Below are positions 3,910 to 57,321 of a DNA stretch of 64,000 nt, piece by piece. Position 1 is the stretch's first letter. Every line of letters begins with the position of its first letter. The notes beneath the pieces were generated by a model. It was not told the origin of the DNA and ran no database searches. It saw only the letters and a program-made list of their open reading frames with translations. Origin of the DNA: an uncultured Candidatus Melainabacteria bacterium (GTDB taxonomy: Bacteria > Cyanobacteriota > Vampirovibrionia > Gastranaerophilales > Gastranaerophilaceae); contig CANOTP010000004.1 of NCBI GenBank assembly GCA_947570135.1, positions 124,001 to 188,000 of the forward strand. Reading direction: 5' to 3'. A program made the translations under genes and the position numbers.

Positions 3910-4773
3910 ATGAACATTACAGCTCAAATGGTTAAAGAACTTCGTGATAAAACAGGTGCTGGCATGATGGATGCAAAAAAAGCGCTTGTAGAAGTTGACG
4001 GAGATATGGAAAAAGCTCAAGAAATTCTTCGCCAAAAAGGTATCGCTTCTGCTGAAAAGAAAATGGGCAGAATCGCTGCTGAAGGTAGAGTTGATTCATT
4101 CGTTTCAGATTCTTGCGGCGCTATGGTTGAAGTTAACTGTGAAACAGACTTCGTTGCAAAAAACGATGATTTCAAAGCTTTAACTGCTAATATGGCAAGA
4201 CATATTGCAGAATTGAACCCTGAAAGCGTAGAAGCATTCTTAGCTTCAACTTGCCCTGAATGCGGTAAAGTTATTGAAGATGCTTTGAAAGAAAAAATTG
4301 CTTCTATCGGTGAAAAAATCACTGTAAGAAGATTTGTAAGATATGAAGGCGCTACAGCTACATATATTCACAACGGAAAAATCGGTGTATTGTTAAACAC
4401 TGATAATAAAGATGAAGAATTAATGAACGATATCTGCTTACATATCGCATCAAGCGCTCCTCAATTCGTTTCAAGAGAAGAAATTCCTCAATCAGTAATT
4501 GATGAAGAAACAAGAATTGAAATGGGTAAAGAAGATTTACAAAAGAAACCTGAAGCAATCAGAGGTAAAATTGTAGAAGGTCGTGTAAATAAGTTAATGG
4601 CTGAAAGATGCTTACTTGAACAGCCGTTTGTAAAAGACCCTAACCAAACAATTGCTCAATTGATTGAAGGTAAATTAACAATCAAAGCATTCACAAGATA
4701 CGAATTAGGCGAAGGTCTTGAAAAACGTCAAGATAACTTTGCAGAAGAAGTTATGGCTCAAATGAAAGGCTAA
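3910..4773 (+). CDS. tsf: Translation elongation factor Ts
   Basis: A 287-residue guanine-nucleotide exchange factor for EF-Tu. The N-terminal UBA-like segment is VKELRDKTGAGMMDAKKALVE. The exchange core contains VEVNCETDFVAKND, the TDFVAKN motif that inserts into EF-Tu, and a C-terminal module follows. Length is close to that of E. coli EF-Ts. A small insertion TCPECGK near residue 115 carries a CxxC pair, possibly structural. AAAGGAG lies 8 bases before the ATG. It is co-transcribed with rpsB and ended by the strong terminator at 4792. Confidence 0.98.
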   Translation: MNITAQMVKELRDKTGAGMMDAKKALVEVDGDMEKAQEILRQKGIASAEKKMGRIAAEGRVDSFVSDSCGAMVEVNCETDFVAKNDDFKALTANMARHIAELNPESVEAFLASTCPECGKVIEDALKEKIASIGEKITVRRFVRYEGATATYIHNGKIGVLLNTDNKDEELMNDICLHIASSAPQFVSREEIPQSVIDEETRIEMGKEDLQKKPEAIRGKIVEGRVNKLMAERCLLEQPFVKDPNQTIAQLIEGKLTIKAFTRYELGEGLEKRQDNFAEEVMAQMKG

Positions 4774-4791
4774 TAACCGATAAATATTATT

Positions 4792-4826
4792 AAAGGCGGC
4801 GACAAGTTTACTTGTCGCCGCCTTTA
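4792..4826 (+). terminator. Rho-independent terminator of rpsB-tsf
   Basis: AAAGGCGGCGACAAG-ttta-CTTGTCGCCGCCTTT is a perfect 15-bp GC-rich stem directly after tsf. The TATAAT at 4830-4835 begins within four bases of it, so the next gene is likely to have its own promoter abutting the terminator. Confidence 0.9.
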
Positions 4827-4842
4827 TGTTATAATAAGTAAA

Positions 4843-4908
4843 AGAGGAGAGAAAAGTATGAAAAATCAAGCTATGACTAGAAATTCGTGGGGGGTAACTT
4901 TTCCTGCT
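4843..4908 (+). repeat. Prepilin leader cassette, copy 2 (TG6 variant)
   Basis: Nearly identical to copy 1 over TATAATAA...AGAGGAGAGAAAAGTATGAAAAA and onward. The run reads TCG-T-GGGGGG-TAAC here. The ATG frame gives MKNQAMTRNSWGVTFPAFS and then TAA at 4915-4917. The prepilin frame is entered by the same -1 shift as in the other copies. It can also be entered from the GTG at 4887, created by the T in the G-run. Confidence 0.85.
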
Positions 4909-5747
4909 TTCTCCTAAGTAACATTTTTACAGTCACTCTGAATTTAATTCAGAGTCTGTCAATGGCAATAAAAAATAATATTGATAGATTCCGTGTCGGT
5001 GCACGGAATGACAATAAAAAAGGTTTCACATTAGCAGAGGTTCTGATTACTCTTGGCATAATCGGAATTGTTGCAGCGATGACTATCCCAAGTTTGTTAA
5101 CCAATATTCAAGACAGGCAGTTTAAGTCGATGTATAAAAAGTATTTTTCAACATTATCGCAGGCTATGTTAAGAAATTATGAAGACACGGGTGAAACTTT
5201 CAGTTATGCTGATTGGCGGGAAATGCCGTTTTTTATATGTAATGTGCAAAAGTATATGAAAGTTCAGTCAAGCGGAATTGACTGTTCTAAAGTTTACAAT
5301 AGAGCAGAAGCGTTTTGGGGGACTGATTCTTGGCCGAGAACGGAAAACAGTGATAAATTATGGCATAGTGGAGCTCAATGGTATGATAAAAAGGGTAAAC
5401 CAATGTACTTAAATGGCGGATACTTGCCATTAACTTTTGTATTACTTGATGGTACTATGTTTAATTTTAATTGCTATAATTCAATTTTACTTGATGTTAA
5501 CGGCAAAAATGGTCCGAATGTTGTCGGGCGCGATATTTATTTTTTACGCTTTAAGCGGGATAGTGCCGCACCTGTTGCATCAATTCAAGTGAACGAAGAG
5601 TATCAAACCAATGCATGTACCCAGGGAGGTTCTAACTCAACAATAAAACTGACAAAAGATAATTATGTAGAAGATTGTTTAAAAGGAACAGGCTGGGGTG
5701 CTCGATTTTATATATGCAGCAATCCAAATAAATTAAATCTTTATTGA
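4858..5747 (+). CDS. Type IV prepilin-like protein with repeat-derived leader
   Basis: The prepilin core is KKG|FTLAEVLITLGIIGIVAAMTIPSLLTN, then a domain of about 220 residues with LDVNGKNGPNVVGRDIYF and several cysteines. The frame is open upstream from the GTG at 4887 through an unusually long leader of about 47 residues, much of it encoded by a dispersed palindromic repeat (4932-5013). The strong SD and ATG at 4858 are in the other frame and need the -1 shift at TG6. ATG 4962 (MAIKNNIDRF) inside the leader is also in frame but has no SD. The 3' end overlaps the convergent gene at 5733 by 15 bases. Confidence 0.75.
4932..5013 (+). repeat. Dispersed palindromic repeat inside prepilin coding leader
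   Basis: The unit begins GTCACT and ends GGAATGACA like that at 1429-1522. Its left arm pair is ACTCTGAATT/AATTCAGAGT (4935-4955) and its right arm pair ATTCCGTG/CACGGAAT (4988-5009), with GTCAATGG and ATTGATAG between. The whole unit is open in the prepilin frame and encodes part of the leader just before KKGFTLAEV, as if the repeat had inserted into the gene. Confidence 0.7.
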
Positions 5748-6239
5748 AAACCCTACGTTAACGCTTGTTGTAGAGGGGTTGATTTTTGTAAGATCATATC
5801 CTTGAACTTCAACAAACACGTTTCCTCCGCCAAAATCGTATAATAAACCCGCAAAACATCCGATGTTGTTTGTAACATCGCCTGAGTTGCAGTTTACTTT
5901 CGATGCCGCGTATGGTGTTGCGTAAGCTTTTGTGTTATTTCCAATCGGAATATTTATTGTGCAAGGTTGAACCCTGAATTGTACGGATTGAGAGCTTTCG
6001 CCAATGTTGTTTCTTATTCTGAACCCGCCTGAAAACGGGTTATCTCCGTATGACATAGAACCTTTAACGTCAAAAATCGCGCTTGTCGGTTTTCTGTCAA
6101 ATGTCATCCCGAGTCCTGCGTAAGCTCCAAGGCTTCCGTTTCCGACTTTGTAGCTGTTATCTACCCCGACGGTTGTAAAGTTTGTTCCGTCAAGCTGTAT
6201 AAATGTTGAACCTGATACTTTTGTTATCGGTGTTGCCAT
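5733..6239 (-). CDS. Unknown small protein, possibly outer-membrane beta-barrel-like
   Basis: A 168-residue protein rich in Gly, Asn, Ser and Thr with alternating hydrophobic patterns (SLGAYAGLGMTFD, GFRIRNNIG, GGGNVFVEVQGYDL), ending in NVGFSIKI. Such a pattern suggests beta-strands; a short barrel or a beta-sandwich is possible. I see no clear signal peptide, because the protein starts MATPITKVSGSTFIQL. It has two Cys residues in the middle region and one later. It is convergent with the prepilin at 4858, overlapping its last 15 bases. No family recognised. Confidence 0.6.
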   Translation of the reverse strand: MATPITKVSGSTFIQLDGTNFTTVGVDNSYKVGNGSLGAYAGLGMTFDRKPTSAIFDVKGSMSYGDNPFSGGFRIRNNIGESSQSVQFRVQPCTINIPIGNNTKAYATPYAASKVNCNSGDVTNNIGCFAGLLYDFGGGNVFVEVQGYDLTKINPSTTSVNVGFSIKI

Positions 6240-6341
6240 AAAATTTTCCCCGTAATTATCCCCTTATATATATAAAGGTTTTTTACGAGGAAAAATTGCA
6301 TAAATCAAATACACAAAGTTACAAATTAATATATTTACCCC

Positions 6342-8069
6342 TTATGCGCTTAACAATTTATCTGCAAGTTCTGTTTCAAGTGTGCCGTTTAGTGCTTTTG
6401 AAACTTTTTGAAGTTTTTTTGCGATAATTTCCATATTATCTGTCCAAACAAAATTATCAAGAACGTATTGTTCGGCTTTATTGAAATCTCCGTCGATTTG
6501 GATTCGGATAATTTCAGCGAGCATTTTTTGAGCGATTGGAACGACTTTATCAATATTTACGTGAATTTTTCCGTCTTTTGTAATATCGTAGGCTCCGCGC
6601 TCTGAGAAATACTTATTCTGCATAACGGTACGAACTCTGTGAGCTTGTGATAGTGTCGGTTTTGATTTCAGGAAGTTATCGGCGATTGTTGTAACAATAA
6701 TTTGTAACCTTTGTTCAGGTGTATACATCCCGACATCTGTCAGTAAGTCTACAAAAGCTAATGCGCCCATATCTGCTTTATTTTCTTCTATGATGTTTCT
6801 GTATTTACCTAATTTTTCACTGCCTTCTTTAGGTCCTAAAGAGTGTGCGTTTTCGTGTCCTATTGTGAACCAGTGGTCTGCTTCATCAAGGTAATATTGG
6901 TGCTGTTCTTTATCTAAAATGGCATCAAGTCTTTCTTGTAATTTTTTCTTATCACTTATAAATCTTATTTGTCTGTGGTAAACATTACGTCTTCCGCCAC
7001 CGATTGTAAGTGATAATTTATCGGAATTAGGCAGGTTTTCTGCTAATGTTATGCCGCCTCGGTATTCACCGACGTCACCTGATGCCATAACCATATCAAC
7101 ATCAACCATTGTTTGCTCGGAATCGGCTTCTGCTGAGATTGTTTGAACGTATTCTCTGTTATAAGGCATATTATCGGCTAACGTTGGAAGATATTTTTTT
7201 ATTGCCATAAGTGCTTGGGTGCCTTCTTTGTTGATAATTCCGACTCTTCCGCCTAAAAAGTCTTTTGGAATAGGTGTAATTCCGTGTTCTTTTAACAGGT
7301 TAGATAATTCTTCATTTTCAACGATTGTACCTGTCATTTCATCTTCGTAATTTTCTCTTGTTATTGTAAATTCTAATGGAGTATCTTGAAGTGTTGCCCA
7401 TTTTTTATCGGCAAACGCGTCTAACATCGGGTCTGCTGTTCTTAGTGCTTTTGCTTGAAGTATCAGATATTCGTTAAAATCAGAGTTTGTTGAAAATTTT
7501 GCGGCAAGTTCAAGTTCATCTGCCATTTTTGCAAAATCTTCGTGGAAATAATCAACATAATCAATTCCTGCCAAGTCTTCCGCTGCTCTTACTACAACTG
7601 AACGCTGAGTCAGTATTGCTTTAACTTCGTCAACTTTACCTTCTTTTATCATTCTAATAAGCACCGTGTGAAACTCTTCTTTTGAAAGGTCTTCAGGATA
7701 AACGCCTTTACCCGGTTTTTCATCGATTCCTTTGATAAGTCTTATCGGGTTTGACATTGTATCTATTGCGTTGATACCTTTTTGCGCGTCAAAAAGAATT
7801 TTGGTAAGTTCTGCTTGTTTATTTCCTTTTTTAATCTCTTCTTCCAAAAATTCTTTTACGGCAAGGTTGTGTTTGCAATCAAGCTGCATATTGATTTTTT
7901 CTAATATTGCCGCGGCTTTTACAAGGTGTTTTAAAGCAAGTTGGTCACCTTCTTTTAATGCTAAATATTCAGGTGCGTCAGCCTTTAAGAATTTTTTAGT
8001 TATAAGATAATCTTTATGAGTTCTTTTTTTTAGTTCGTCCATAGACAGGTTTAATTCAAAAGTTTCCAT
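6342..8069 (-). CDS. Zinc metallopeptidase, M49 (dipeptidyl-peptidase III-like)
   Basis: 575 residues. The catalytic region reads HWFTIGHENAHSLGPK, then EENKADMGALAFVDLL about 25 residues later. The HExxH-type motif followed by a GP and a second EExKAD motif is typical of bacterial M49-family members (DPP III proper has HEXXGH and EECRAE). The His pair and the second Glu would bind zinc. Upstream segments such as GEYRGGITLAENLPNSD and GGGRRNVYHRQIRF fit the lobes of the fold. There is no signal peptide, so it is probably cytoplasmic peptide turnover. AGGAGAG lies 10 bases before the ATG. It is followed downstream, after a gap, by the beta-rich unknown. Confidence 0.75.
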   Translation of the reverse strand: METFELNLSMDELKKRTHKDYLITKKFLKADAPEYLALKEGDQLALKHLVKAAAILEKINMQLDCKHNLAVKEFLEEEIKKGNKQAELTKILFDAQKGINAIDTMSNPIRLIKGIDEKPGKGVYPEDLSKEEFHTVLIRMIKEGKVDEVKAILTQRSVVVRAAEDLAGIDYVDYFHEDFAKMADELELAAKFSTNSDFNEYLILQAKALRTADPMLDAFADKKWATLQDTPLEFTITRENYEDEMTGTIVENEELSNLLKEHGITPIPKDFLGGRVGIINKEGTQALMAIKKYLPTLADNMPYNREYVQTISAEADSEQTMVDVDMVMASGDVGEYRGGITLAENLPNSDKLSLTIGGGRRNVYHRQIRFISDKKKLQERLDAILDKEQHQYYLDEADHWFTIGHENAHSLGPKEGSEKLGKYRNIIEENKADMGALAFVDLLTDVGMYTPEQRLQIIVTTIADNFLKSKPTLSQAHRVRTVMQNKYFSERGAYDITKDGKIHVNIDKVVPIAQKMLAEIIRIQIDGDFNKAEQYVLDNFVWTDNMEIIAKKLQKVSKALNGTLETELADKLLSA

Positions 8070-8108
8070 TATAAAGCTCTCCTTTTTGTTATTTATATAA
8101 GAATTATA

Positions 8109-8330
8109 TCATTCGGAATCTAAATTAACAAGCTCGTGTATTTTTAGGTCTAGAATTTTACATATTTTAAACAATGTATCAATGCTTGCTTTTTTCTCTC
8201 CCCGTTCAATTTCTCCCATATAGTATGCATTTATATCAGCCATTTCTGCAAATTTTTCTCTTGATAATTTTTGCAGTTTTCTTAAATTAGATATTTTAAC
8301 CCCGAGATTTTTGTAAAAGCTGCTTGTCAT
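8109..8330 (-). CDS. XRE-family transcriptional regulator (prepilin-paired)
   Basis: A 73-residue single-domain repressor: LGVKISNLRKLQKLSREKFAEMADINAYYMGEIERGEKKASIDTLFKICKILDLKIHELV, a full five-helix XRE domain with nothing else. It lies head-to-head with the prepilin gene at 8398, with 67 bases between the starts. This is the same layout as the pairs at 463/649 and 34403/34491. It resembles the regulator at 34491 more than the one at 155 (NAYYMGEIERG against DAHYISDIERG). Probable local control of the neighbouring prepilin, inferred from position. Confidence 0.85.
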   Translation of the reverse strand: MTSSFYKNLGVKISNLRKLQKLSREKFAEMADINAYYMGEIERGEKKASIDTLFKICKILDLKIHELVNLDSE

Positions 8331-8365
8331 TAAATAATTTTAGTATAATATAGTATCATGTTACA

Positions 8366-8380
8366 TTGGCTCGAAGCCAA
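8366..8380. promoter_or_regulatory. Palindrome between XRE and prepilin genes
   Basis: TTGGCT-cga-AGCCAA lies between a TATAAT at 8344-8349 and the AAAGGAG site of the prepilin gene. It would overlap the start of the transcript and is a reasonable operator, or a leader hairpin. Confidence 0.35.
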
Positions 8381-8397
8381 CCAAAAAGGAGCGATGA

Positions 8398-9105
8398 ATG
8401 AAAATATTTAAAGGTTTTACATTGGCAGAGGTATTAATCACTCTTGGAATAATCGGAGTTGTCGCAGCATTAACCATTCCGAGTTTAATAAGAAATATAC
8501 AGGACAGACATTTTAAGGCTGTTTGGAAGAAAACATTTGCATCAGTTGCGAACGCTTACAGGTTAGGGATGAATGATGAGGATTTATTAGTCCCACATTT
8601 AGATTTTGATTATGGTGCTTATAATCAAGGTTATCAGGATGTTGAAGTTTATTATAAAATATTTACTAATTTAAAAACTTTGGATTATTGTGTTACTGGG
8701 GTAAACTTAAATGAAAATTGCAGTAATTCTTGGATATTTACGTCTCGAACAGGATATAAAAATAATTGTCAATGTAAATCCATAAACAGTGATAAAGATT
8801 ACGGATGTGCTTATAATAATACTTTAGGATTTGCAGTATTACCTGATGGTGTTCATTTGTTTGCGCATGCCGCGTTTTGGAGTCATCCTGATATAATGGT
8901 GGATGTAAACGGTCCAAGCGGTCCAAATGTAGTCGGGCGGGATATTTTTATTATTCTTATTCGTAACGATAAAGTTATCGCAGGCGGAGCTCCCGGGTAT
9001 GAATTAAAAGGTTGTGATAAATCTGTTTCATCCAATAGCGGTTTTGTCGATGCTGAATCTTATTCAGGGAGTGGCTGCGGGTATAAGTACTTAATGGAAA
9101 AATAA
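8398..9105 (+). CDS. Type IV prepilin-like protein (XRE-paired)
   Basis: 235 residues. The leader is short and standard: MKIFKG|FTLAEVLITLGIIGVVAALTIPSLIRN. The C-terminal domain carries several cysteines (CVTGVNLNENCSNSW, NNCQCKS, CGYKY) and VDVNGPSGPNVVGRDIF, nearly the same motif as in the gene at 4858. The ATG is preceded by AAGGAG. It is transcribed away from the XRE gene at 8330 and ends 5 bases before the convergent pdxA-like stop. It may be a minor pilin or pseudopilin, as no pilus-assembly genes lie nearby. The cysteines suggest disulphides after export. Confidence 0.85.
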   Translation: MKIFKGFTLAEVLITLGIIGVVAALTIPSLIRNIQDRHFKAVWKKTFASVANAYRLGMNDEDLLVPHLDFDYGAYNQGYQDVEVYYKIFTNLKTLDYCVTGVNLNENCSNSWIFTSRTGYKNNCQCKSINSDKDYGCAYNNTLGFAVLPDGVHLFAHAAFWSHPDIMVDVNGPSGPNVVGRDIFIILIRNDKVIAGGAPGYELKGCDKSVSSNSGFVDAESYSGSGCGYKYLMEK

Positions 9106-9109
9106 ACAT

Positions 9110-10030
9110 TTAATTGTTGATAACAGTTTTTATAGCTTCAATCATGCCTGACGGGTCAGCGAGGTTTTTGCCCGCAATGTCAAATGCTGTGCCGTGTCCG
9201 GGGGATGTCCTTATTATATCAAGTCCGATTGTCATATTAACCGTTTTATCGCCTGCTACAGTTTTTATAGGGATTAAGCCCTGATCGTGGTAGTTTGCAA
9301 TGTAGCAATCGTATTCATCATCTTTCTCGTGCAAATAATTTTTGGCGGCTTTTACAAAAAGCGTATCCGCAGGCAATGGCATTGTAATATTTACCTCTTC
9401 TGCTTGCAGTTCTTTTACCGCAGGGATTAAAATGTCAATTTCTTCCGTTCCTAAAATTCCGTCTTCGCCTGAATGAGGATTAAATCCGCACAGTGCAAAT
9501 TTCGGGTTTTCTATTTTGAATTGAGTTTGAAATGTTTGAACTAGGTTTTTAACTTTTGTTTTAACAATTTCTTTTGTTAAATTGATATCTTTTAGTGCAC
9601 AATGACGGGTCAAAAGAAGTACTCTAAAGTTTTTTGCCACAAAAAGCATCTCTGCAAGCTGATTATCGTGAGCCAAATAGTGTTGTAAAACTTCTGTCTG
9701 CCCGTTAAAAATGTGACCTGCAAGATGCAGAGCGTTTTTAGCAACAGGAGCTGTAACTATAGCTTTTGGTCGGATTTCGCAAACTTTTTTGAGCGATTGA
9801 TACGAAAACTCTCCCGCATCTTTTGTAACTTGTCCAGCTTTAATTTCAGCATCATACGGAATCTCGATTATTTCGTAATTTTTATCGAGTTTGCCGTAAT
9901 AATCAAGTATTTTTCTATTTGACACAAGAACAATCTTATCTTGAGGAATATCAAGATAATTTAGTGCTTTTACGGTAATTTCGGCGCCGATACCATTCGG
10001 ATCGCCCGTTGTTATTGCAATTTTATCCAT
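9110..10030 (-). CDS. pdxA: PdxA-family dehydrogenase (4-hydroxythreonine-4-phosphate or 4-phospho-threonate/erythronate type)
   Basis: 306 residues, an NAD-dependent oxidative decarboxylase. It starts KIAITTGDPNGIGAEI. Metal-binding histidines lie in ANYHDQGLIPIK and TSPGHGTAFDIAG, with a third candidate in GQTEVLQHYLAH. The family includes PdxA of pyridoxal-phosphate synthesis and PdxA2 enzymes that act on 4-phospho-D-threonate or D-erythronate. Its neighbour, 5 bases upstream on the same strand, is a DUF1537 sugar-acid kinase, which is the known partner of PdxA2. Context therefore favours sugar-acid catabolism, although sequence alone cannot exclude vitamin B6 synthesis. The family call is secure; the substrate is not. 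Confidence 0.85.
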   Translation of the reverse strand: MDKIAITTGDPNGIGAEITVKALNYLDIPQDKIVLVSNRKILDYYGKLDKNYEIIEIPYDAEIKAGQVTKDAGEFSYQSLKKVCEIRPKAIVTAPVAKNALHLAGHIFNGQTEVLQHYLAHDNQLAEMLFVAKNFRVLLLTRHCALKDINLTKEIVKTKVKNLVQTFQTQFKIENPKFALCGFNPHSGEDGILGTEEIDILIPAVKELQAEEVNITMPLPADTLFVKAAKNYLHEKDDEYDCYIANYHDQGLIPIKTVAGDKTVNMTIGLDIIRTSPGHGTAFDIAGKNLADPSGMIEAIKTVINN

Positions 10031-10035
10031 AATGC

Positions 10036-11355
10036 TTATTCTTCGTGTTTTTCAAAGTATTTCAGGATTTCAATAAGTGTATTAACTCCACCCAGGTTGC
10101 CTGATTTTGTTACAATCCATTGGTCTGAGTTTGCGTTTTTACTAAGCGCAATTGCAGGAACTACTTCATCTATAATTTGCAGTTGATTTGCGTTTAAGCT
10201 GTTGCAGCATTTATAAGAAGTTTCACCGCCAAGTGTTATAAGGATTGCTTTTTTCTGTTCAAGAACCCGTTTTGAAAGTTCGGCAAGAAAATCTGTTATC
10301 GCATTTGAAAGTCCTGATTTTGTCAAATCTGCGTTCATTGTATCGTCTGAAAACCCGTCAAAATTTATAAGTAATTTTGATGTATGGACAAGTACAATAT
10401 TATCGTTTTTCAGGTTTGAAACGATTCTTTCGACAAGTTCATCCTGAACTCCGTTTAGAATCGTTTTTGTATCAAGTTCGATTACTAGGCTGTTTTCTTC
10501 GTATTCTTCGTTTTGTTCAAATTTAACAATTTGGTTTGCTGTAATTTGAGTTGCACTGCCTGATACGATAAATTTAGGGAGTTTCGGAAGTTTTACGGGC
10601 AGAATATCTCTTTCTTCATCTTTTGGGAACCACTGGTCACTTAAGATTTTACCTGCCGCGGCTGTTCCGACAGGAAGTATGTTAAAGTTTGATTTACCCA
10701 TAGCAAGTACGATTTGTTCAATATCCGTTGTTGAAACAGAATCGGCAACGATTATCTTAACCCCTTTTTCAATGAGTTTGTTTATTTTTTTTAGGATAGG
10801 ACCTGCTCCGTCCATAATTGTTTTTAACTTAATACTGTCAACCAAATCTTCAAGATTTTCGCCCAGTTGTTGTTTTAAAAGTGTCGGCAGGTGAGATTCA
10901 GAAATTGGAGAGTGCGGATCTCGAGCCATTTCGGTACGCTCAATCGGAACCCCTTTTAACAGGTGGTATCCGCCGACTGTTATTCTGCCTTCTTGAGGGA
11001 ATGCAGGCATGACAATTGCCGCGTCCCATTTCAGGACTTCAAGCATTGATAAAATTTCGACCGCAATATTTCCTCTGACTGTTGAATCTATTTTTTTGTA
11101 GAAAAAATCAGGCTTGATTTTGTTTACAAAAAACTCGGTTGCAGATTTAACTTTTTCAAAAGCATCTTGGGGCGAGATATTTCTTGATTCTGTTGAAATA
11201 GCCCAAGCTTGCTCAATATCGGAAGCTTTCGGTTCCGTATCGGTATTAAGTAAAATGTTTGTATCCGCGTTGTTCAGTTTAAACTGCAACGCTGTATCGT
11301 TTGCGCCTGTTAAATCATCAGCAACAATACATACAGTGTTAGAATTAATTATCAT
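10036..11355 (-). CDS. Four-carbon acid sugar kinase family protein (DUF1537)
   Basis: 439 residues. The N-terminal CIVADDLTGANDTALQF is the DUF1537 signature (substrate domain). The C-terminal nucleotide domain contains PKFIVSGSATQITANQI and GNLGGVNTLIEIL. Characterised members (DtnK, LtnK, OtnK) phosphorylate D-threonate, L-threonate or 3-oxo-tetronates, and their product is oxidised by a PdxA2- or OtnC-type enzyme. Here the PdxA-like gene follows immediately, giving a two-gene kinase and dehydrogenase unit. The start overlaps the ssb stop (ATGA-type overlap at 11352-11355), so all three genes are probably co-transcribed, though functionally unrelated to ssb. Confidence 0.85.
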   Translation of the reverse strand: MIINSNTVCIVADDLTGANDTALQFKLNNADTNILLNTDTEPKASDIEQAWAISTESRNISPQDAFEKVKSATEFFVNKIKPDFFYKKIDSTVRGNIAVEILSMLEVLKWDAAIVMPAFPQEGRITVGGYHLLKGVPIERTEMARDPHSPISESHLPTLLKQQLGENLEDLVDSIKLKTIMDGAGPILKKINKLIEKGVKIIVADSVSTTDIEQIVLAMGKSNFNILPVGTAAAGKILSDQWFPKDEERDILPVKLPKLPKFIVSGSATQITANQIVKFEQNEEYEENSLVIELDTKTILNGVQDELVERIVSNLKNDNIVLVHTSKLLINFDGFSDDTMNADLTKSGLSNAITDFLAELSKRVLEQKKAILITLGGETSYKCCNSLNANQLQIIDEVVPAIALSKNANSDQWIVTKSGNLGGVNTLIEILKYFEKHEE

Positions 11356-49858: not shown

Positions 49859-51172
49859 ATGAATTTGACTAATAAATTACTTGCGGCATTAAACGAATTA
49901 ACGATATTAACGCCTGACAGATTTAGTAGTGAGCATAAGTTTGAATCAGGCAGGAAAAGGTGGGTTGCAAATATTTTACCCGTGGAACTTTTGTCAAGAA
50001 GTGTAAAGCAGGCTGTGGAATCGTTGGTTACATTGTGTGAATGTGAACAGTTTTACCAAAGCTTCCCCGATATAATTAATTCCCCTGATTACGGTGATAA
50101 ATGGGGTGTTCGTGCAAATTATATTGAAATAAATAACCGCGCGATAGCCGAAATGCACGGTGACAGAACTAAAAACGGACTGTTTAGCGCGCTGAAGATG
50201 TTGCCTGCGATTCCGCCGTCAGCTAAAAGTTGGGCAAATTGTGTTATTTTATCTCAAATTTTTCCTAATATTTACGGTGACGGGTATAACAAAGCGCCTT
50301 GGGAAGAAAACTCGATTTACGGTATAAAGCTTGGTATAGGGTATAGCAGAAATATAATTAATTTTGAGATTAATGATAAAATTACTCCTGAAGAACAGTT
50401 TAGGATTTTTAATGATTTGGCTCATTTTCATGGGCTTAAGACAGGGTTCAGAACTGTAATATCTGCTGATCAAATCAAGGTTTCTCAGGATTATAAAGAA
50501 GATGTGACTTTTGATTGGAAAAATCCCGAACATCAGGAATTATTTATAAATGAACATGTCAAATTGATAAATTCTGGGTTTGAAGCGATTTTTATTGATT
50601 CTGCAAAGCATATCGGCGGATATGAAATGGAAAATTATACTGGTGTCGGCGCTTTACCTTCGTATGAGCAGATGCAGTATATTTTGCACGAAATAAGAAG
50701 CCGTTCAGGGAAAACAACATTAAGTTTTGTCGGAGAAAAAAGTACGGGCGATTTTAAACGTTATGAAAATTTAGGTTTAACTTCTGGAACTGCTTTTATT
50801 GAACCCGATAATTATGATGAGGTTAAGCATTGGTCAGAAAGATTTAAGTATGACCAAAATTACACACCAGGGATTGAAGTTTCAAATGATAATGATACGG
50901 GCGGCAGGTCTTATGAAGCTCGATTAAACCGTATAAATAATTCTCTGTTCGGGTATGAGTATCCGAGTGATAAACTGCCGAGCTTTATGCAAATGGAAGA
51001 CTTGTTTCCGCTTCGTTATGATACAAATACTCATCATCTTATGATGACAAATCCATCATATTCGACTGACGGAACACCGAAAAGCCATTGGGAAAATTTG
51101 TTTACAAAAGATGACGGAAGAGAATATAACAGGAAAGTTGCTGATTTGTTTATTTACGCTCTAAATTTGTAA
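49859..51172 (+). CDS. Unknown protein, TIM-barrel hydrolase-like pattern
   Basis: 437 residues, no signal peptide. Strand-like segments with acidic ends (GVRANYIEINNRAIAEMHGD, FRTVISADQIKVSQDY, FEAIFIDSAKHIGGY, TTLSFVGEKSTGDFKRY) suggest an alpha-amylase-like or related TIM barrel with candidate acids at ISAD, IDSAKH and VGEKS. No family can be named. The C-terminal part is polar (EDLFPLRYDTNTHHLMMTN). It overlaps the convergent aroA gene by 23 bases. It is not near any carbohydrate gene. Confidence 0.55.
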   Translation: MNLTNKLLAALNELTILTPDRFSSEHKFESGRKRWVANILPVELLSRSVKQAVESLVTLCECEQFYQSFPDIINSPDYGDKWGVRANYIEINNRAIAEMHGDRTKNGLFSALKMLPAIPPSAKSWANCVILSQIFPNIYGDGYNKAPWEENSIYGIKLGIGYSRNIINFEINDKITPEEQFRIFNDLAHFHGLKTGFRTVISADQIKVSQDYKEDVTFDWKNPEHQELFINEHVKLINSGFEAIFIDSAKHIGGYEMENYTGVGALPSYEQMQYILHEIRSRSGKTTLSFVGEKSTGDFKRYENLGLTSGTAFIEPDNYDEVKHWSERFKYDQNYTPGIEVSNDNDTGGRSYEARLNRINNSLFGYEYPSDKLPSFMQMEDLFPLRYDTNTHHLMMTNPSYSTDGTPKSHWENLFTKDDGREYNRKVADLFIYALNL

Positions 51173-52478: not shown

Positions 52479-53468
52479 ATGTGGTATTATTTTAATATGT
52501 CATATTATGGACGAAGATATACTAAATATGATTTTTATGTAGGTTTAGCAGCATTTGTCGTTGTTGCTATGGTTAAGTTTTGGGTTTATTATCCTACACT
52601 TTGTACTATTATTGCTTTAGTTATAATTTCTTTGACTGTTTTTGGCGGGAATTGGCTTATTGACAGAGATAACAAAAACAGTATCAAAAACGTTCGCCTG
52701 TCTTTGGTGAAAGGGCTTGATACAATCGGAAATGCTCATTGTACCGTGAAATTTGCACCTGATGATAAACTTATTGTTATGGAAAATATTCCACGTAATA
52801 ATCAAAAACAGATGTTTACTTTATTAAAAAAAGACGGATATAAGGTGAATAAATTGTGGAGCGAAGTTTGCAGGATATTTGATGATTATTCTAATGTCAG
52901 AACATTATCACTTCTTCTTGATGTTCCAAACAGTCAGATTGTTACTCTTGAATCAAAAGCAAGACCGATCGAAACCCCTCCTAAGCCACAGACTTCTGCT
53001 CGTCAGATTAATATTGATAACTCAAATATCGGACCAAAATTTGTTGAAATGGGTGCTATAGTACCTGACAGATTTGGAGTAGGCGGAAATGTTCAAAATA
53101 AAGGTTCAGAGGATTTTGTGAACCTTGATAATATAAATAAAGCAAATCCTGTTACTGAAAGAACTCAGCAAGAACCCGAGTTTGTAGAGATGAAAGACGC
53201 CTTTGCAGTTACTTCTACAAAAATTGATGTGAACAGTGTCCAAGCTCCCGAGTTAGCCGTACTCCCGGGGATTAATATAGTTCAGGCAAAAAAACTTGTA
53301 GAACATAGAAATATTAACGGGTTATTTAAATCAGTTGAAGAGTTTATTCAAGTGGCAAACGTCAAACCTCACTTTGTATCAAAAATCAAATCAATGATTG
53401 TTGCAAATTCCATTAATAATAACAGTAACGATGATGACAATTATGAAGGCAGGATTGTTGATTTTTAA
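52479..53468 (+). CDS. Membrane protein with C-terminal helix-hairpin-helix (ComEA-like)
   Basis: 329 residues. Two N-terminal membrane helices (YVGLAAFVVVAMVKFWVYYP, LCTIIALVIISLTVFGGNWLI). A middle soluble part follows, and residues about 250-310 form a helix-hairpin-helix pair: DVNSVQAPELAVLPGINIVQAKKLVEHRNINGLFKSVEEFIQV, the ComEA type that binds DNA without sequence preference. ComEA captures DNA for uptake with type IV pilus machinery, which fits the many prepilins here, though this protein is longer and differently anchored. It overlaps the next gene start by one base. Confidence 0.75.
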   Translation: MWYYFNMSYYGRRYTKYDFYVGLAAFVVVAMVKFWVYYPTLCTIIALVIISLTVFGGNWLIDRDNKNSIKNVRLSLVKGLDTIGNAHCTVKFAPDDKLIVMENIPRNNQKQMFTLLKKDGYKVNKLWSEVCRIFDDYSNVRTLSLLLDVPNSQIVTLESKARPIETPPKPQTSARQINIDNSNIGPKFVEMGAIVPDRFGVGGNVQNKGSEDFVNLDNINKANPVTERTQQEPEFVEMKDAFAVTSTKIDVNSVQAPELAVLPGINIVQAKKLVEHRNINGLFKSVEEFIQVANVKPHFVSKIKSMIVANSINNNSNDDDNYEGRIVDF

Positions 53469-54073
53469 TGTTGGATGTTTATAAGGTTCTAAAAAAAACA
53501 ACGGTAGAAGGTCCTGGAACAAGGTTTTGTATTTGGGTTCAAGGCTGTAAAAAGCATTGTCCTGGGTGTTTTGCCAAAGAAACATGGGCGTTTGGTGTTG
53601 GGAAGAAATACAGTGTTGAAGACTTATTTAAACAAATAAAATCAGAAAAAAATATCGAAGGTGTAACTTTTTTGGGCGGGGAACCCTTTGAGCAGGCTGA
53701 CGAACTTTCACGCCTGGCAGCTTTGATTAAACAAGAAAATTTATCTGTTGTGTGTTTTACGGGATATACAATAGAGGAGCTGCGTGCAAAAAATTCTTCT
53801 TCTGTTGATTCATTTTTAAAAAATATTGATTTGCTTATTGACGGCGGATTTGAAAAAGATAACTTTGACCTGTCACGTCCCTGGGTCGGGTCTTCAAACC
53901 AAAGGTATTTATATCTTACGGATTTTTATTCGCCTGAAGATATTAAATCTTATAAAAACAAAGTAGAAGCAAGAATCTCTTCTGACGGACGCTTAGAGTT
54001 CAACGGAATGGGGGATTTTGAGGCTATCCGTGAAAAATTTTGTTTACAACTTGGTAAAAATATTGTAAAATGA
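53468..54073 (+). CDS. Radical SAM activating enzyme (NrdG/PflA-like)
   Basis: 201 residues. The radical SAM cluster motif CKKHCPGC (CxxxCxxC, about residue 28) lies in GTRFCIWVQGCKKHCPGCF. GVTFLGGEPFEQADELSRL is the GGEP motif. It is most like the anaerobic ribonucleotide reductase activase NrdG, which generates the glycyl radical. No reductase gene is nearby; it lies between the HhH protein and the ycf46 gene. It could instead serve another glycyl-radical enzyme. Confidence 0.88.
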   Translation: MLDVYKVLKKTTVEGPGTRFCIWVQGCKKHCPGCFAKETWAFGVGKKYSVEDLFKQIKSEKNIEGVTFLGGEPFEQADELSRLAALIKQENLSVVCFTGYTIEELRAKNSSSVDSFLKNIDLLIDGGFEKDNFDLSRPWVGSSNQRYLYLTDFYSPEDIKSYKNKVEARISSDGRLEFNGMGDFEAIREKFCLQLGKNIVK

Positions 54074-54096: not shown

Positions 54097-55737
54097 ATGG
54101 CAGATAATAAAATTATTACACAACTTTCAATGTTGTTCAGAGCAAGATTCCCATATATCTATATAACTACTTGGGAAGAAGAACGTGCAATATCTTTAAT
54201 TAAAAAGATTGCCGCATCTGAAAAACTAATTAAAGTTCCTCGCGAAGTGTATACTTGGACCCAAACCAATGGTTTTACGCTTGGAAATCAGAAAATAGAC
54301 GGCACGAACAGTCCCGATAAAGCCTTAGAGTTTATTAAAGAATGCAGTAAAAATGCTGTCTTCGTATTATGCGATTTTCATGTGTATTTCGGTGTGAAAG
54401 GGCGTCAGGTTGATTATAACGTTGTAAGACGCTTAAGAGATATTATTGCGGAGCTTAAAACAAGCAGATATCGTAAAAATGTTATATTTATCGCTTCAGA
54501 ACTTTTAATCCCCGAATCTATGCAAAAAGAAGTTACGATACTTGATATGCCGCTTCCTACCTTAGATGAAATTAAAGCTAAGCTTAATAAAATGATCACT
54601 CAAAATAATCAAATTGATACGTCAGGACTTGATGAAGAAGGTAAAGAACGCTTATGTAAAGCTGCACAAGGTTTGACCTTACAAGAAGCAGAAAATGCAT
54701 TTGCTCTTGCTATGGTTAATGACGGAAAAATTGATGGCAAAGATTTAGGCGTAATATTAAGTGAAAAAATGCAGGTTATCAAAAAAACAGGTATTTTAGA
54801 ATTTATCAATACTGATATAAATGTTTCTGATGTTGGTGGGTTGGAAAATCTTAAAAGCTGGCTCAATAAACGTAACAATTCTTGGTCTGAATCAGCTAAA
54901 AAATATTGTTTGCCTGCTCCAAAAGGTGTTTTGATAACAGGTGTTCCTGGCTGCGGTAAGAGTTTGACAGCAAAAGCTATGAGTGCAGCCTGGCAGTTAC
55001 CTTTGTTAAAGCTTGATTTTGGTAAGATTTTCTCAGGAATTGTCGGAAGCTCCGAAGAAAATATGAGAAAAGCTATTAAAACCGCAGAAGCAGTGGCTCC
55101 TTCAATTTTATGGGTTGATGAGATTGAAAAGAGCTTGAGTGGTGTTAATTCCTCTGGAGGAGGAGGTGATAGCGGAACTTCTTCAAGAATTTTTGGGACA
55201 TTTTTAACCTGGATGCAGGAAAAGACTGCTCCTGTTTTTGTAATTGCTACAGCAAACAATATTAGCGGATTACCTGCCGAGCTTTTAAGAAAAGGTCGTT
55301 TTGATGAAATATTTTTTGTAGACCTGCCGACAGAGCGTGAACGTAAAGAAATTTTCAAACTTCACCTTGCCAAAAGGCTTAAAGATAAAGATGTTGCAAG
55401 CAAACTTGAAATAAATGATGAATTATTTGGAAAACTTGCCTCAATGACAGAAGGTTTTGTAGGTGCTGAAATTGAACAAGTTGTGATAACGGCACTTTAT
55501 GAAGCGTTTTTTAACAAGCGTCCTTTAGAATTTGCAGATTTAGAAAACACAATTAAAAATGTTGTACCGTTATCTGTTACACAGAAAGAACAAATTTTAT
55601 CACTTCGTCAGTGGGCAAATATAAGAGCCGTAACCGCAACAAAAAAAGATGATATGGTTCAGTATTCAACTTCAACCGATGATAGTGAAAATGCAGATGT
55701 TAATGCTTCTCGCGGTGGCAGGGCGTTGGATGTATAG
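54097..55737 (+). CDS. ycf46: Ycf46-like AAA+ ATPase
   Basis: 546 residues. The N-terminal part (about 1-220) has ARFPYIYITTWEEERAI, and the C-terminal part is a single AAA+ module: GVLITGVPGCGKSLTAKA (Walker A), APSILWVDEIEKSLSG (Walker B), VFVIATANNISGLPAELLRKGRFDEIFFVDLP (sensor and arginine finger region). This layout and the ITTWEEER-type start match Ycf46 of cyanobacteria and algal plastids, where it affects inorganic-carbon uptake or photosynthesis in some species. Here the organism is likely non-photosynthetic, so the role must be more general. Genes at 55751 and 57020 follow closely in the same direction. Confidence 0.85.
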   Translation: MADNKIITQLSMLFRARFPYIYITTWEEERAISLIKKIAASEKLIKVPREVYTWTQTNGFTLGNQKIDGTNSPDKALEFIKECSKNAVFVLCDFHVYFGVKGRQVDYNVVRRLRDIIAELKTSRYRKNVIFIASELLIPESMQKEVTILDMPLPTLDEIKAKLNKMITQNNQIDTSGLDEEGKERLCKAAQGLTLQEAENAFALAMVNDGKIDGKDLGVILSEKMQVIKKTGILEFINTDINVSDVGGLENLKSWLNKRNNSWSESAKKYCLPAPKGVLITGVPGCGKSLTAKAMSAAWQLPLLKLDFGKIFSGIVGSSEENMRKAIKTAEAVAPSILWVDEIEKSLSGVNSSGGGGDSGTSSRIFGTFLTWMQEKTAPVFVIATANNISGLPAELLRKGRFDEIFFVDLPTERERKEIFKLHLAKRLKDKDVASKLEINDELFGKLASMTEGFVGAEIEQVVITALYEAFFNKRPLEFADLENTIKNVVPLSVTQKEQILSLRQWANIRAVTATKKDDMVQYSTSTDDSENADVNASRGGRALDV

Positions 55738-55750
55738 GGGGTAAAAGACA

Positions 55751-57013
55751 ATGTCGATAACTTTAATGGCTTACCCTATGGCGTTTCTGGTTGCCCCAGA
55801 ATCGGTAAAAGACGAAGGGTTACAAAGAGCTTCTGATAACAAAACTTCAATAATTAATTCAACCTCTCAATTTCTTCGCTCAATAAGAGTTTTAACAAAT
55901 ATTACCTCAGATGAAGTCAACAGTATTATGGCATCTGTTGCGTGTCAACAGATTGATTCCTGCGAGTTTCAGTTATCATCAGGGTTGAAGGTTGAATGGA
56001 ATTTGCACGGTAAATACGCAGTTGCGGAAGTTTTTGGGATTAAAAACCCCGAAAAACTGCAATCAGCAGCCGAAGAGTTTTTTCAAAATTTGGATGCTGT
56101 TGCACAAAGAAATGTGCGGCTTATTGAGTCTGCCGAGTATTTTTATTACAACTACGAAACATCATATCAAAACCTCAAGGATATTTATAATAAATTAAAA
56201 TCAGAAGGTGCCGAGCGTATATTTTCGACATCTGATAATGAAGTAGTTGCAAATGTTGAAGGACAAGATGTTAAATATTTTAAACATGAAGGTGAAAAAA
56301 TTTTTACGCTGGAAGTTGAGCAAGTTGTCCGAATCCTTAATATCGGTATGTCAGGCGGTTATGAGGGTAGAAATGTTTCTTACGGGCTTAAAAATTTAAA
56401 AATTCAAACAAATATTAAACCCGAAGAATTAAAATCTCTATTGTATGAGGCAAATTATCTATATTACGAGGCAGGACACCAAACCCCGTTAAAAAACAGT
56501 GATGCGACTTTAAACTGGTCGTTAAAAGACGGTTATTATACCGCGGAATTCTCAGGAAGTAATAATGCAGCTATAACCAAAGAAGCAGAAATAATTTTTA
56601 GGAAATTAAACCGTGCCTCAGGTCGGGATGTGCGCTATATAAATGACATTTCTACTGCAGTTTATACGTATTCTACAAATTATACGGATAAAGGAATACT
56701 TTTAAACACGCTTGTTGAGCACGGTGCGGAAGAACTTGTCGAAAACGGCGAAGAGGTTTCCTGCAAACTTTTCGGTATGGAAATGGTTTATTACAAAAAA
56801 GACGGTTCGGCGGGGTATACTCTTGATATTACGCAGGTTACAGATAAGGCGGGCTGTGAAGATATTATAAACGATTTGAACGAAGAATACGGGCTTAATA
56901 TTCAGGAAATGACGTATAACAAGATTAAGGAACGTCTTGACCGCGAGAATATGAGGCTTGAATCGGAAGCCGTAATGGAAGATAATTCAATAGTCCTTAC
57001 AATTGAGGTTTAA
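55751..57013 (+). CDS. Unknown protein with internal duplication, partner of the ycf46-like ATPase
   Basis: 420 residues in two halves of about 200. Aligned segments: GLKVEWNLHGKYAVAEVFGI against ATLNWSLKDGYYTAEFSGS; GQDVKYFKHEGEKIFTLEVEQV against GMEMVYYKKDGSAGYTLDITQV; NIYNKLKSEGAERI-type against NTLVEHGAEEL. In cyanobacteria the same slot beside the AAA ATPase and DUF2997 is occupied by Ycf35 (DUF1257), a single-copy protein of similar strand pattern. A duplicated, diverged DUF1257 is plausible but unproven. It starts 13 bases after ycf46 and ends 6 bases before the DUF2997 gene. Confidence 0.65.
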   Translation: MSITLMAYPMAFLVAPESVKDEGLQRASDNKTSIINSTSQFLRSIRVLTNITSDEVNSIMASVACQQIDSCEFQLSSGLKVEWNLHGKYAVAEVFGIKNPEKLQSAAEEFFQNLDAVAQRNVRLIESAEYFYYNYETSYQNLKDIYNKLKSEGAERIFSTSDNEVVANVEGQDVKYFKHEGEKIFTLEVEQVVRILNIGMSGGYEGRNVSYGLKNLKIQTNIKPEELKSLLYEANYLYYEAGHQTPLKNSDATLNWSLKDGYYTAEFSGSNNAAITKEAEIIFRKLNRASGRDVRYINDISTAVYTYSTNYTDKGILLNTLVEHGAEELVENGEEVSCKLFGMEMVYYKKDGSAGYTLDITQVTDKAGCEDIINDLNEEYGLNIQEMTYNKIKERLDRENMRLESEAVMEDNSIVLTIEV

Positions 57014-57019
57014 GATAAT

Positions 57020-57220
57020 ATGGGTAAAATGAAAATAAGATTGTTCCCAGACGGAAGTATCCAAATGGAAACAGAGGGTATAAAAGGTAAAAAATGTGCT
57101 GATTATGCTAAAGTTCTTGAAAAATTAGCAGACGCGAAGGTTTATTCACTGGAAAGAACCGAAGAGTACTATCAAACCGAATTAACCCTTGACGAAACAC
57201 AGCGTTTAGGCGATACTTAG
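57020..57220 (+). CDS. DUF2997-family small protein
   Basis: 66 residues: KIRLFPDGSIQMETEGIKGKKCADYAKVLEKLADAKVYSLERTEEYYQ. The pattern of two strands, a helix with KGxxC, and a final EYYQ is that of DUF2997. It is found with an AAA ATPase and DUF1257 (Ycf35) in cyanobacteria. It lies last in the three-gene unit ycf46-(duplicated unknown)-DUF2997. Function unknown. The stop is followed by tRNA-Ser after 11 bases. Confidence 0.8.
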   Translation: MGKMKIRLFPDGSIQMETEGIKGKKCADYAKVLEKLADAKVYSLERTEEYYQTELTLDETQRLGDT

Positions 57221-57231
57221 ATAGTATAAAA

Positions 57232-57321
57232 GGAGACGTGTCCGAGTGGCTTAAGGTGCAATCTTGGAAAGGTTGTGTGGGGGTTACTCCACCGTGAGTT
57301 CGAATCTCACCGTCTCCGCCA
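57232..57321 (+). tRNA. tRNA-Ser (GGA)
   Basis: A class II tRNA with acceptor GGAGACG/CGTCTCC, anticodon GGA (CTTGGAAAG), a long variable arm (TGTGGGGGTTACTCCACC) and T arm GTGAGTTCGAATCTCAC. Discriminator G at 57318 and an encoded CCA (57319-57321), unlike the other tRNAs here. Confidence 0.95.

Follow-up and report, generated by a model that had tools for sequence, protein, structure and literature searches.

A five-gene operon around a Ycf46-type AAA+ ATPase in a non-photosynthetic gut relative of cyanobacteria: a candidate tag-guided remodelling machine

Gene content of the operon

The window, by which we mean the whole 64,000-nucleotide stretch of DNA analysed, contains a unit of five genes starting at position 52479 and encoding, in order, a membrane helix-hairpin-helix (HHH) protein, a radical-SAM enzyme, an AAA+ ATPase, a DUF1257-like protein and a DUF2997 protein (Table 1). 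The original prediction had described a set of three genes from the ATPase to DUF2997; all three were present where it placed them, while the HHH and radical-SAM partners upstream had been missed. The radical-SAM gene start overlaps the stop codon of the HHH gene, and no terminator-like site was found between 52300 and 57360; one is present after a tRNA-Ser gene. This tRNA-Ser(GGA) gene (57232-57321) lies 3' of the operon, and a hydrogenase/complex-I-like membrane gene cluster (Proton_antipo_M) runs from 57482 onward. A 437-aa open reading frame (ORF) at 49859-51172 was without any Pfam match.

Table 1. Coordinates of the operon's genes and their internal features (window positions).
Feature	Position	Strand	Evidence or remark
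HHH protein gene	52479..53468	+	Pfam HHH_3 51.2 bits; start codon position uncertain
HHH protein C-terminal tail GRIVDF	53448..53465	+	Genome-wide pattern search
Radical-SAM enzyme gene	53468..54073	+	Pfam Fer4_12 133.9 bits; C-x3-C-x2-C
AAA+ ATPase gene, Ycf46-type	54097..55737	+	Pfam AAA 100.5 bits, AAA_lid_3 31.3 bits
ATPase C-terminal tail RGGRALDV	55711..55734	+	R-G-G-R invariant in ATPase alignment
420-aa DUF1257-like protein gene, internal duplication	55751..57013	+	Self-alignment, profile comparison
Repeat copy 1 of 420-aa protein, residues 42-193	55874..56329	+	BLASTP E=1e-14 vs copy 2
Repeat copy 2 of 420-aa protein, residues 213-364	56387..56842	+	BLASTP E=1e-14 vs copy 1
Single-copy C-terminal segment of 420-aa protein, residues 365-420	56843..57010	+	Conservation; best DUF1257 match
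DUF2997 protein gene, 66 aa	57020..57220	+	PF11211 45.8 bits, cut-off 24.1

From the N- to the C-terminus the HHH protein consists of hydrophobic segments, a linker, a ComEA-type HHH_3 domain and the tail EGRIVDF. It has the HHH motif alone in common with ComEA, scoring 37 bits against a comE cut-off of 152.35. The radical-SAM enzyme belongs by sequence family with NrdG and pyruvate formate-lyase (PFL) activase, the latter being its nearest solved structure, and its score against the NCBIfam NrdG model (129.5 bits) falls just above the cut-off of 126.1. We recognised neither NrdD nor any other glycyl-radical enzyme in the operon, in which respect it differs from those activases. A role as activase of the genome's NrdD (C2:280714-282498) was ruled out, since that gene has its own adjacent and better-scoring NrdG (176.8 bits).

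The middle protein had been described as two similar halves. Its duplication was confirmed: residues 42-193 and 213-364 align over 154 columns (BLASTP, E=1e-14), the self-alignment reached a local score of 157 against a maximum of 85 among 1000 shuffles, and profile-profile comparison of the two halves across homologues gave E=7e-19. The repeat unit is, however, about 150 aa rather than an entire half, and the C-terminal 56 residues (365-420) occur singly and are the most conserved. The two-half, 420-aa form was observed only in the window's genus, some members being 330 aa, while other genera carry one copy of about 165-190 aa. In a genome of another family (G048), two separate DUF1257-like genes flank DUF2997. 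The duplication is thus a local event, and the suggestion that it marks the functional partner was not supported, as it is confined to one genus.

No family gave a credible match to the 420-aa protein; Pfam DUF1257 (PF06868) did not match it at E<=1, nor anything else in the whole genome. A profile of single-copy relatives from many phyla matched the DUF1257 of Ycf35 and clade II (the Omnitrophota-type operons described below) with a probability of 96% (E=4.9e-9, 107 columns), with unrelated control profiles reaching at most 2.3%, and at the level of the family, as for the C-terminal part, the match covers the full domain length. Comparison of each half with DUF1257 had been proposed as a check; the C-terminal part proved related, while the N-terminal half gave 0.1-1.1% directly and is linked only through the C-terminal half. 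Profile comparison by way of intermediates therefore makes the middle protein a diverged relative of the DUF1257/Ycf35 family, descended from it. The 66-aa protein belongs to DUF2997, its PF11211 score lying above the cut-off (Table 1).

We modelled the DUF1257-like and DUF2997 proteins with AF2 as an in-frame read-through of the ATPase tail, DUF1257-like protein and DUF2997, in which the stops were read as glycine in silico. The cores of both proteins were predicted at >90 pLDDT, and structural alignments span the N-terminal strand of the DUF1257-like protein into DUF2997, in line with the two making up one composite domain in the model. Look-alikes in the PDB (spermine synthase N-domain, beta2-adaptin appendage and KA1; Z 8-9.6) were read as a common arrangement and not as kinship, and Foldseek against viral models returned low-TM matches only.

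Distribution and ancestry

The order HHH, radical SAM, AAA, DUF1257-like, DUF2997 is kept across about 40 Gastranaerophilaceae loci, with an HHH orthologue in the same position in nearly all complete loci of the family. HHH genes also occur in the clade I operons of other phyla, and a radical-SAM gene was found with nearly all clade I operons, across phyla. At named loci the operon was observed, in varying gene order, in Bacillota, Actinomycetota, Bacteroidota, Sebaldella, Armatimonadetes and Planctomycetaceae. The clade I operons of a Rhodococcus aetherivorans plasmid (AAI421_RS28625-28605) and of Neobacillus dielmonensis (L179) contain all five components and both tails; they differ from the window's operon in gene order and in a DUF1257-like protein without duplication of the 420-aa kind. 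The expectation that the genes co-occur as a conserved unit outside photosynthesis was therefore borne out widely, in several phyla including the Planctomycetaceae. Unrelated halves together with a lack of co-occurrence would have spoken against the original prediction, and both the relation to DUF1257 and the co-occurrence were found.

The ATPase has the Walker A motif GVPGCGKS and the Walker B motif ILWVDEIEK, and its likeness to Ycf46 runs along the chain and includes the N-terminal domain; cyanobacterial homologues are 46-49% identical to it across residues 8-516. Relatives were present in all ten oxygenic cyanobacteria searched. By its named relatives, the nearest of which has an ATPase at 86% (MOYD01000063), the organism belongs to Candidatus Gastranaerophilales, a non-photosynthetic group within the cyanobacterial phylum. 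Within the family Gastranaerophilaceae the ATPase was found in 43 of 146 genomes; six other Vampirovibrionia genomes queried with it gave no match, and G048 has the operon.

The original prediction had the module kept without photosynthesis, that is, a photosynthesis-linked set of Ycf46, Ycf35 and DUF2997 inherited from a photosynthetic ancestor. The presence of homologous families in oxygenic cyanobacteria agrees with such an origin, but the phylogeny of the ATPase contradicts it. The window's clade groups with gut Clostridia (SH-aLRT 99), and this group is nested in a broad bacterial clade rich in Bacillota and Actinomycetota, apart from cyanobacterial Ycf46, with which it forms no orthologous clade. 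An AU test rejected a grouping of the window's clade with the cyanobacterial sequences (p-AU 3.9e-6), as it did a constraint with Ycf46 proper alone (p-AU 7.6e-6). Tree and test together reject a clade that would unite the ATPase with cyanobacterial Ycf46 and leave out the remaining sampled bacteria, and the six Vampirovibrionia genomes without a match also count against inheritance, so that vertical retention from photosynthetic ancestors is ruled out as far as the tree and AU test reach and we regard it as extremely improbable. Because of the tree and AU test, lateral spread fits better than retention; it is also hinted at by versions of the module on plasmids, in phages and in a genomic island.

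A C-terminal tail shared by the ATPase and its partners

The ATPase (RGGRALDV) and the non-homologous HHH protein (EGRIVDF) end in a common tail, (G/E)-R-x-[LIV]-[DE]-hydrophobic. Among named loci of many phyla, the ending R-x-[LIV]-[DE]-hydrophobic was found on 55 of the 60 ORFs for HHH proteins and on 49 of the 81 for the ATPase; of 2209 other, unannotated ORFs that reach 100 aa, 8 have it. All clade I ATPases in the alignment share R-G-G-R; HHH tails usually have no GG and in many cases take the form ERxID. Both tails were observed again in plasmid operons of Rhodococcus and Arthrobacter. In one genome (G431; L114/L171) the radical-SAM gene is preceded by about seven HHH genes in tandem, each with the ending E-R-x-[IVL]-D-[LIF], which represent an expansion of the presumed client. 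The tail codons vary, with six Arg codons and both Asp codons in use, so that selection acts on the protein and not on a ribosome-binding site; an artefact of the latter kind was thereby ruled out.

A scan of the 1.9 Mb genome for G-[RKHQN]-x-phi-D-x-stop gave 12 DNA matches. Six proteins with in-frame G-[RK]-x-phi-D-x ends were judged credible (in-frame status was taken from an ORF check for the TAA/TGA set and from gene calls for the TAG set), and all six lie in two module clusters: the AAA and HHH proteins of the operon and, from a paralogous cluster, an AAA protein, a pair of TPR-HHH proteins and a nuclease of the Mrr_cat family. This second module (L031, G000:C1:70000-84000, at 4090-10870) sits in an island with integrase, resolvase and Dam-like genes and encodes DUF2997, radical SAM, AAA, TPR-HHH, DUF1257-like, a further TPR-HHH and the membrane-linked Mrr_cat nuclease, four of these proteins bearing the tail.

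Relatives were found on hundreds of plasmids and in phages. On enterobacterial conjugative plasmids (L103, IncA; about 700 plasmids) an AAA relative is accompanied by a protein of DUF1257 size, by DUF2997 and by a neighbouring protein whose end reads GKRKIILD. Rhizobium/Agrobacterium phages (L100-L102, L105) have the AAA gene near replication genes, most with DUF1257 and DUF2997 genes.

The island setting of the paralogue with its tail-bearing, membrane-linked nuclease, the relatives on plasmids and in phages, and the patchy occurrence within the family would all suit a module that is at heart a mobile conflict or defence system, domesticated in the Gastranaerophilales chromosome, whose tag would bring in effectors, the Mrr nuclease among them. 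PADLOC, however, recognised no system: the AAA and radical-SAM proteins showed only domain-level similarity to IetA and pVip (generic AAA, viperin-type), and the nuclease of the mobile module an Mrr-type similarity. With the module also present in every oxygenic cyanobacterium searched and the chromosomal operon lacking a nuclease, we consider a defence origin unlikely.

The tail and the DUF genes tend to occur together. The ATPase has the tail in 48 of 58 loci with DUF1257/DUF2997 nearby and is without it in 19 of 21 loci lacking them (Fisher p=3e-9, loci being counted without kinship correction). After correction for phylogeny, two to three contrasts were in favour and none against (p ~0.5), the independent events being few. 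In the AF2 read-through above, the AAA tail was undocked (pLDDT ~48), having no free end in that construct; in a second read-through, of DUF2997, the DUF1257-like protein and the HHH protein, the free HHH tail was likewise undocked (pLDDT ~43), and in both cases the alignments were shallow and mostly unpaired. This absence of docking on DUF1257-like/DUF2997 would be expected if the tail signalled to a factor outside the module, for instance a protease or a partner in the membrane, with the operon being no more than co-regulated. Against this stand the confinement of the tail to the two module clusters in this genome and its absence from most ATPases where the DUF genes are missing, and we hold an outside factor to be improbable.

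Proposed machine and its branches

The reading that we prefer, at close to an even chance, is that the operon encodes a tag-guided AAA+ remodelling machine. The DUF1257-like and DUF2997 proteins would together serve the AAA ring as its adaptor, and the tail would be a docking tag that brings into the complex both the clients, here the HHH protein anchored in the membrane, and the ATPase itself. Through ATP hydrolysis the client would then be pulled on or remodelled. Some AAA machines, among them Vps4 on the MIM tails of ESCRT-III and Rubisco activase, take hold of their targets by a terminal peptide, and the proposed mode of action of the operon is like theirs in that an AAA ring acts on clients through short terminal motifs. 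It is unlike them in that we found no MIT domain or known adaptor and that the operon ATPase itself bears the tail. Clients may have been swapped by lineage: in the mobile paralogue their place would be taken by TPR-HHH proteins and a nuclease of the Mrr type, in Omnitrophota-type operons by zinc-ribbon or TPR proteins that bear RFxxLE at the N-terminus.

The radical-SAM enzyme would modify some member of the complex, and tail or client as its substrate is a guess. Were the tail on the ATPase and HHH protein its substrate site, modification could drive assembly, either by RiPP-like maturation of G-R-x-L-D-F or by formation of a glycyl radical in the RGGR with which the ATPase tail starts. The constancy of the radical-SAM gene in clade I, its structural kinship to PFL activase, its lack of a role for NrdD and the invariant R-G-G-R of clade I ATPases are consistent with this; the usual lack of GG in HHH tails, with ERxID in many, and the R-K-L-E-F-type tails of clade II ATPases, whose operons have no radical-SAM gene, are not. 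Many hosts (Arthrobacter, Neobacillus, Rhodococcus) are moreover known as aerobes, a way of life that suits a glycyl radical poorly. We therefore give a tail substrate roughly one chance in five. Since clade II keeps the tail without the gene, the radical-SAM step of the proposed machine would not be general.

In the Omnitrophota-type operons (clade II), AAA, DUF1257 and DUF2997 are accompanied by a zinc-ribbon or TPR protein that replaces HHH and radical SAM. Several clade II ATPases end in RKLEF or similar, and their partners carry RFxxLE near the N-terminus, often twice (nine proteins at eight loci, against a background of 32 in 1479 ORFs). RFxxLE partners beside AAA/DUF1257/DUF2997 were observed at L213, L221, L211, L229, L230, L215, L227 and L225. 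Cyanobacterial Ycf46 ends in EYQR[LM]EF. An R-phi-acid-hydrophobic element thus runs through all of them, clients being exchanged around it. In our reading the N-terminal RFxxLE may be likened to the C-terminal tail, without a claim of homology.

The operon could belong to a widespread bacterial system, a tentative proposal that we place somewhat below an even chance. In such a system, which would have a radical-SAM enzyme of its own, an AAA ring and a DUF1257-DUF2997 adaptor would read a short terminal tag, and the tagged clients, whether membrane HHH, TPR or zinc-ribbon proteins or a nuclease, would be exchangeable; the Ycf46/Ycf35 of cyanobacteria and plastids would then represent one specialised branch. 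Ycf46, Ycf35 and DUF2997 are carried by cyanobacteria, the first two also by algal plastids, and we know of no mechanism assigned to them. A sister clade that is large, non-photosynthetic and equipped with additional partners and a common tag offers a direct experimental handle in the six tail residues and allows clients to be sought by sequence. In the freely accessible literature searched, we found no description of the module or tag, and nothing joining radical SAM, HHH, AAA ATPase and DUF1257.

The cyanobacterial set of Ycf46 with Ycf35(DUF1257), DUF2997 and Fed7 resembles the operon in its homologous AAA, DUF1257-type and DUF2997 proteins and in the related Ycf46 tail. It differs in that no HHH or radical-SAM partner was seen there, in the separate clade of its ATPase and in its DUF1257 protein, that of the operon being too diverged for the Pfam model. 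Among proteins ending R-[LM]-E-F in six cyanobacteria searched, we observed Ycf46 in two genomes and one match that ends no listed ORF. DUF2997-ycf35-fed7 has been listed as a cyanobacterial gene cluster (PMC4284462). The ferredoxin gene fed7, beside DUF2997/Ycf35 in two of our loci (L045, L057), encodes N-terminal repeats of RSGFEPELGGxLR, possibly an analogous tag.
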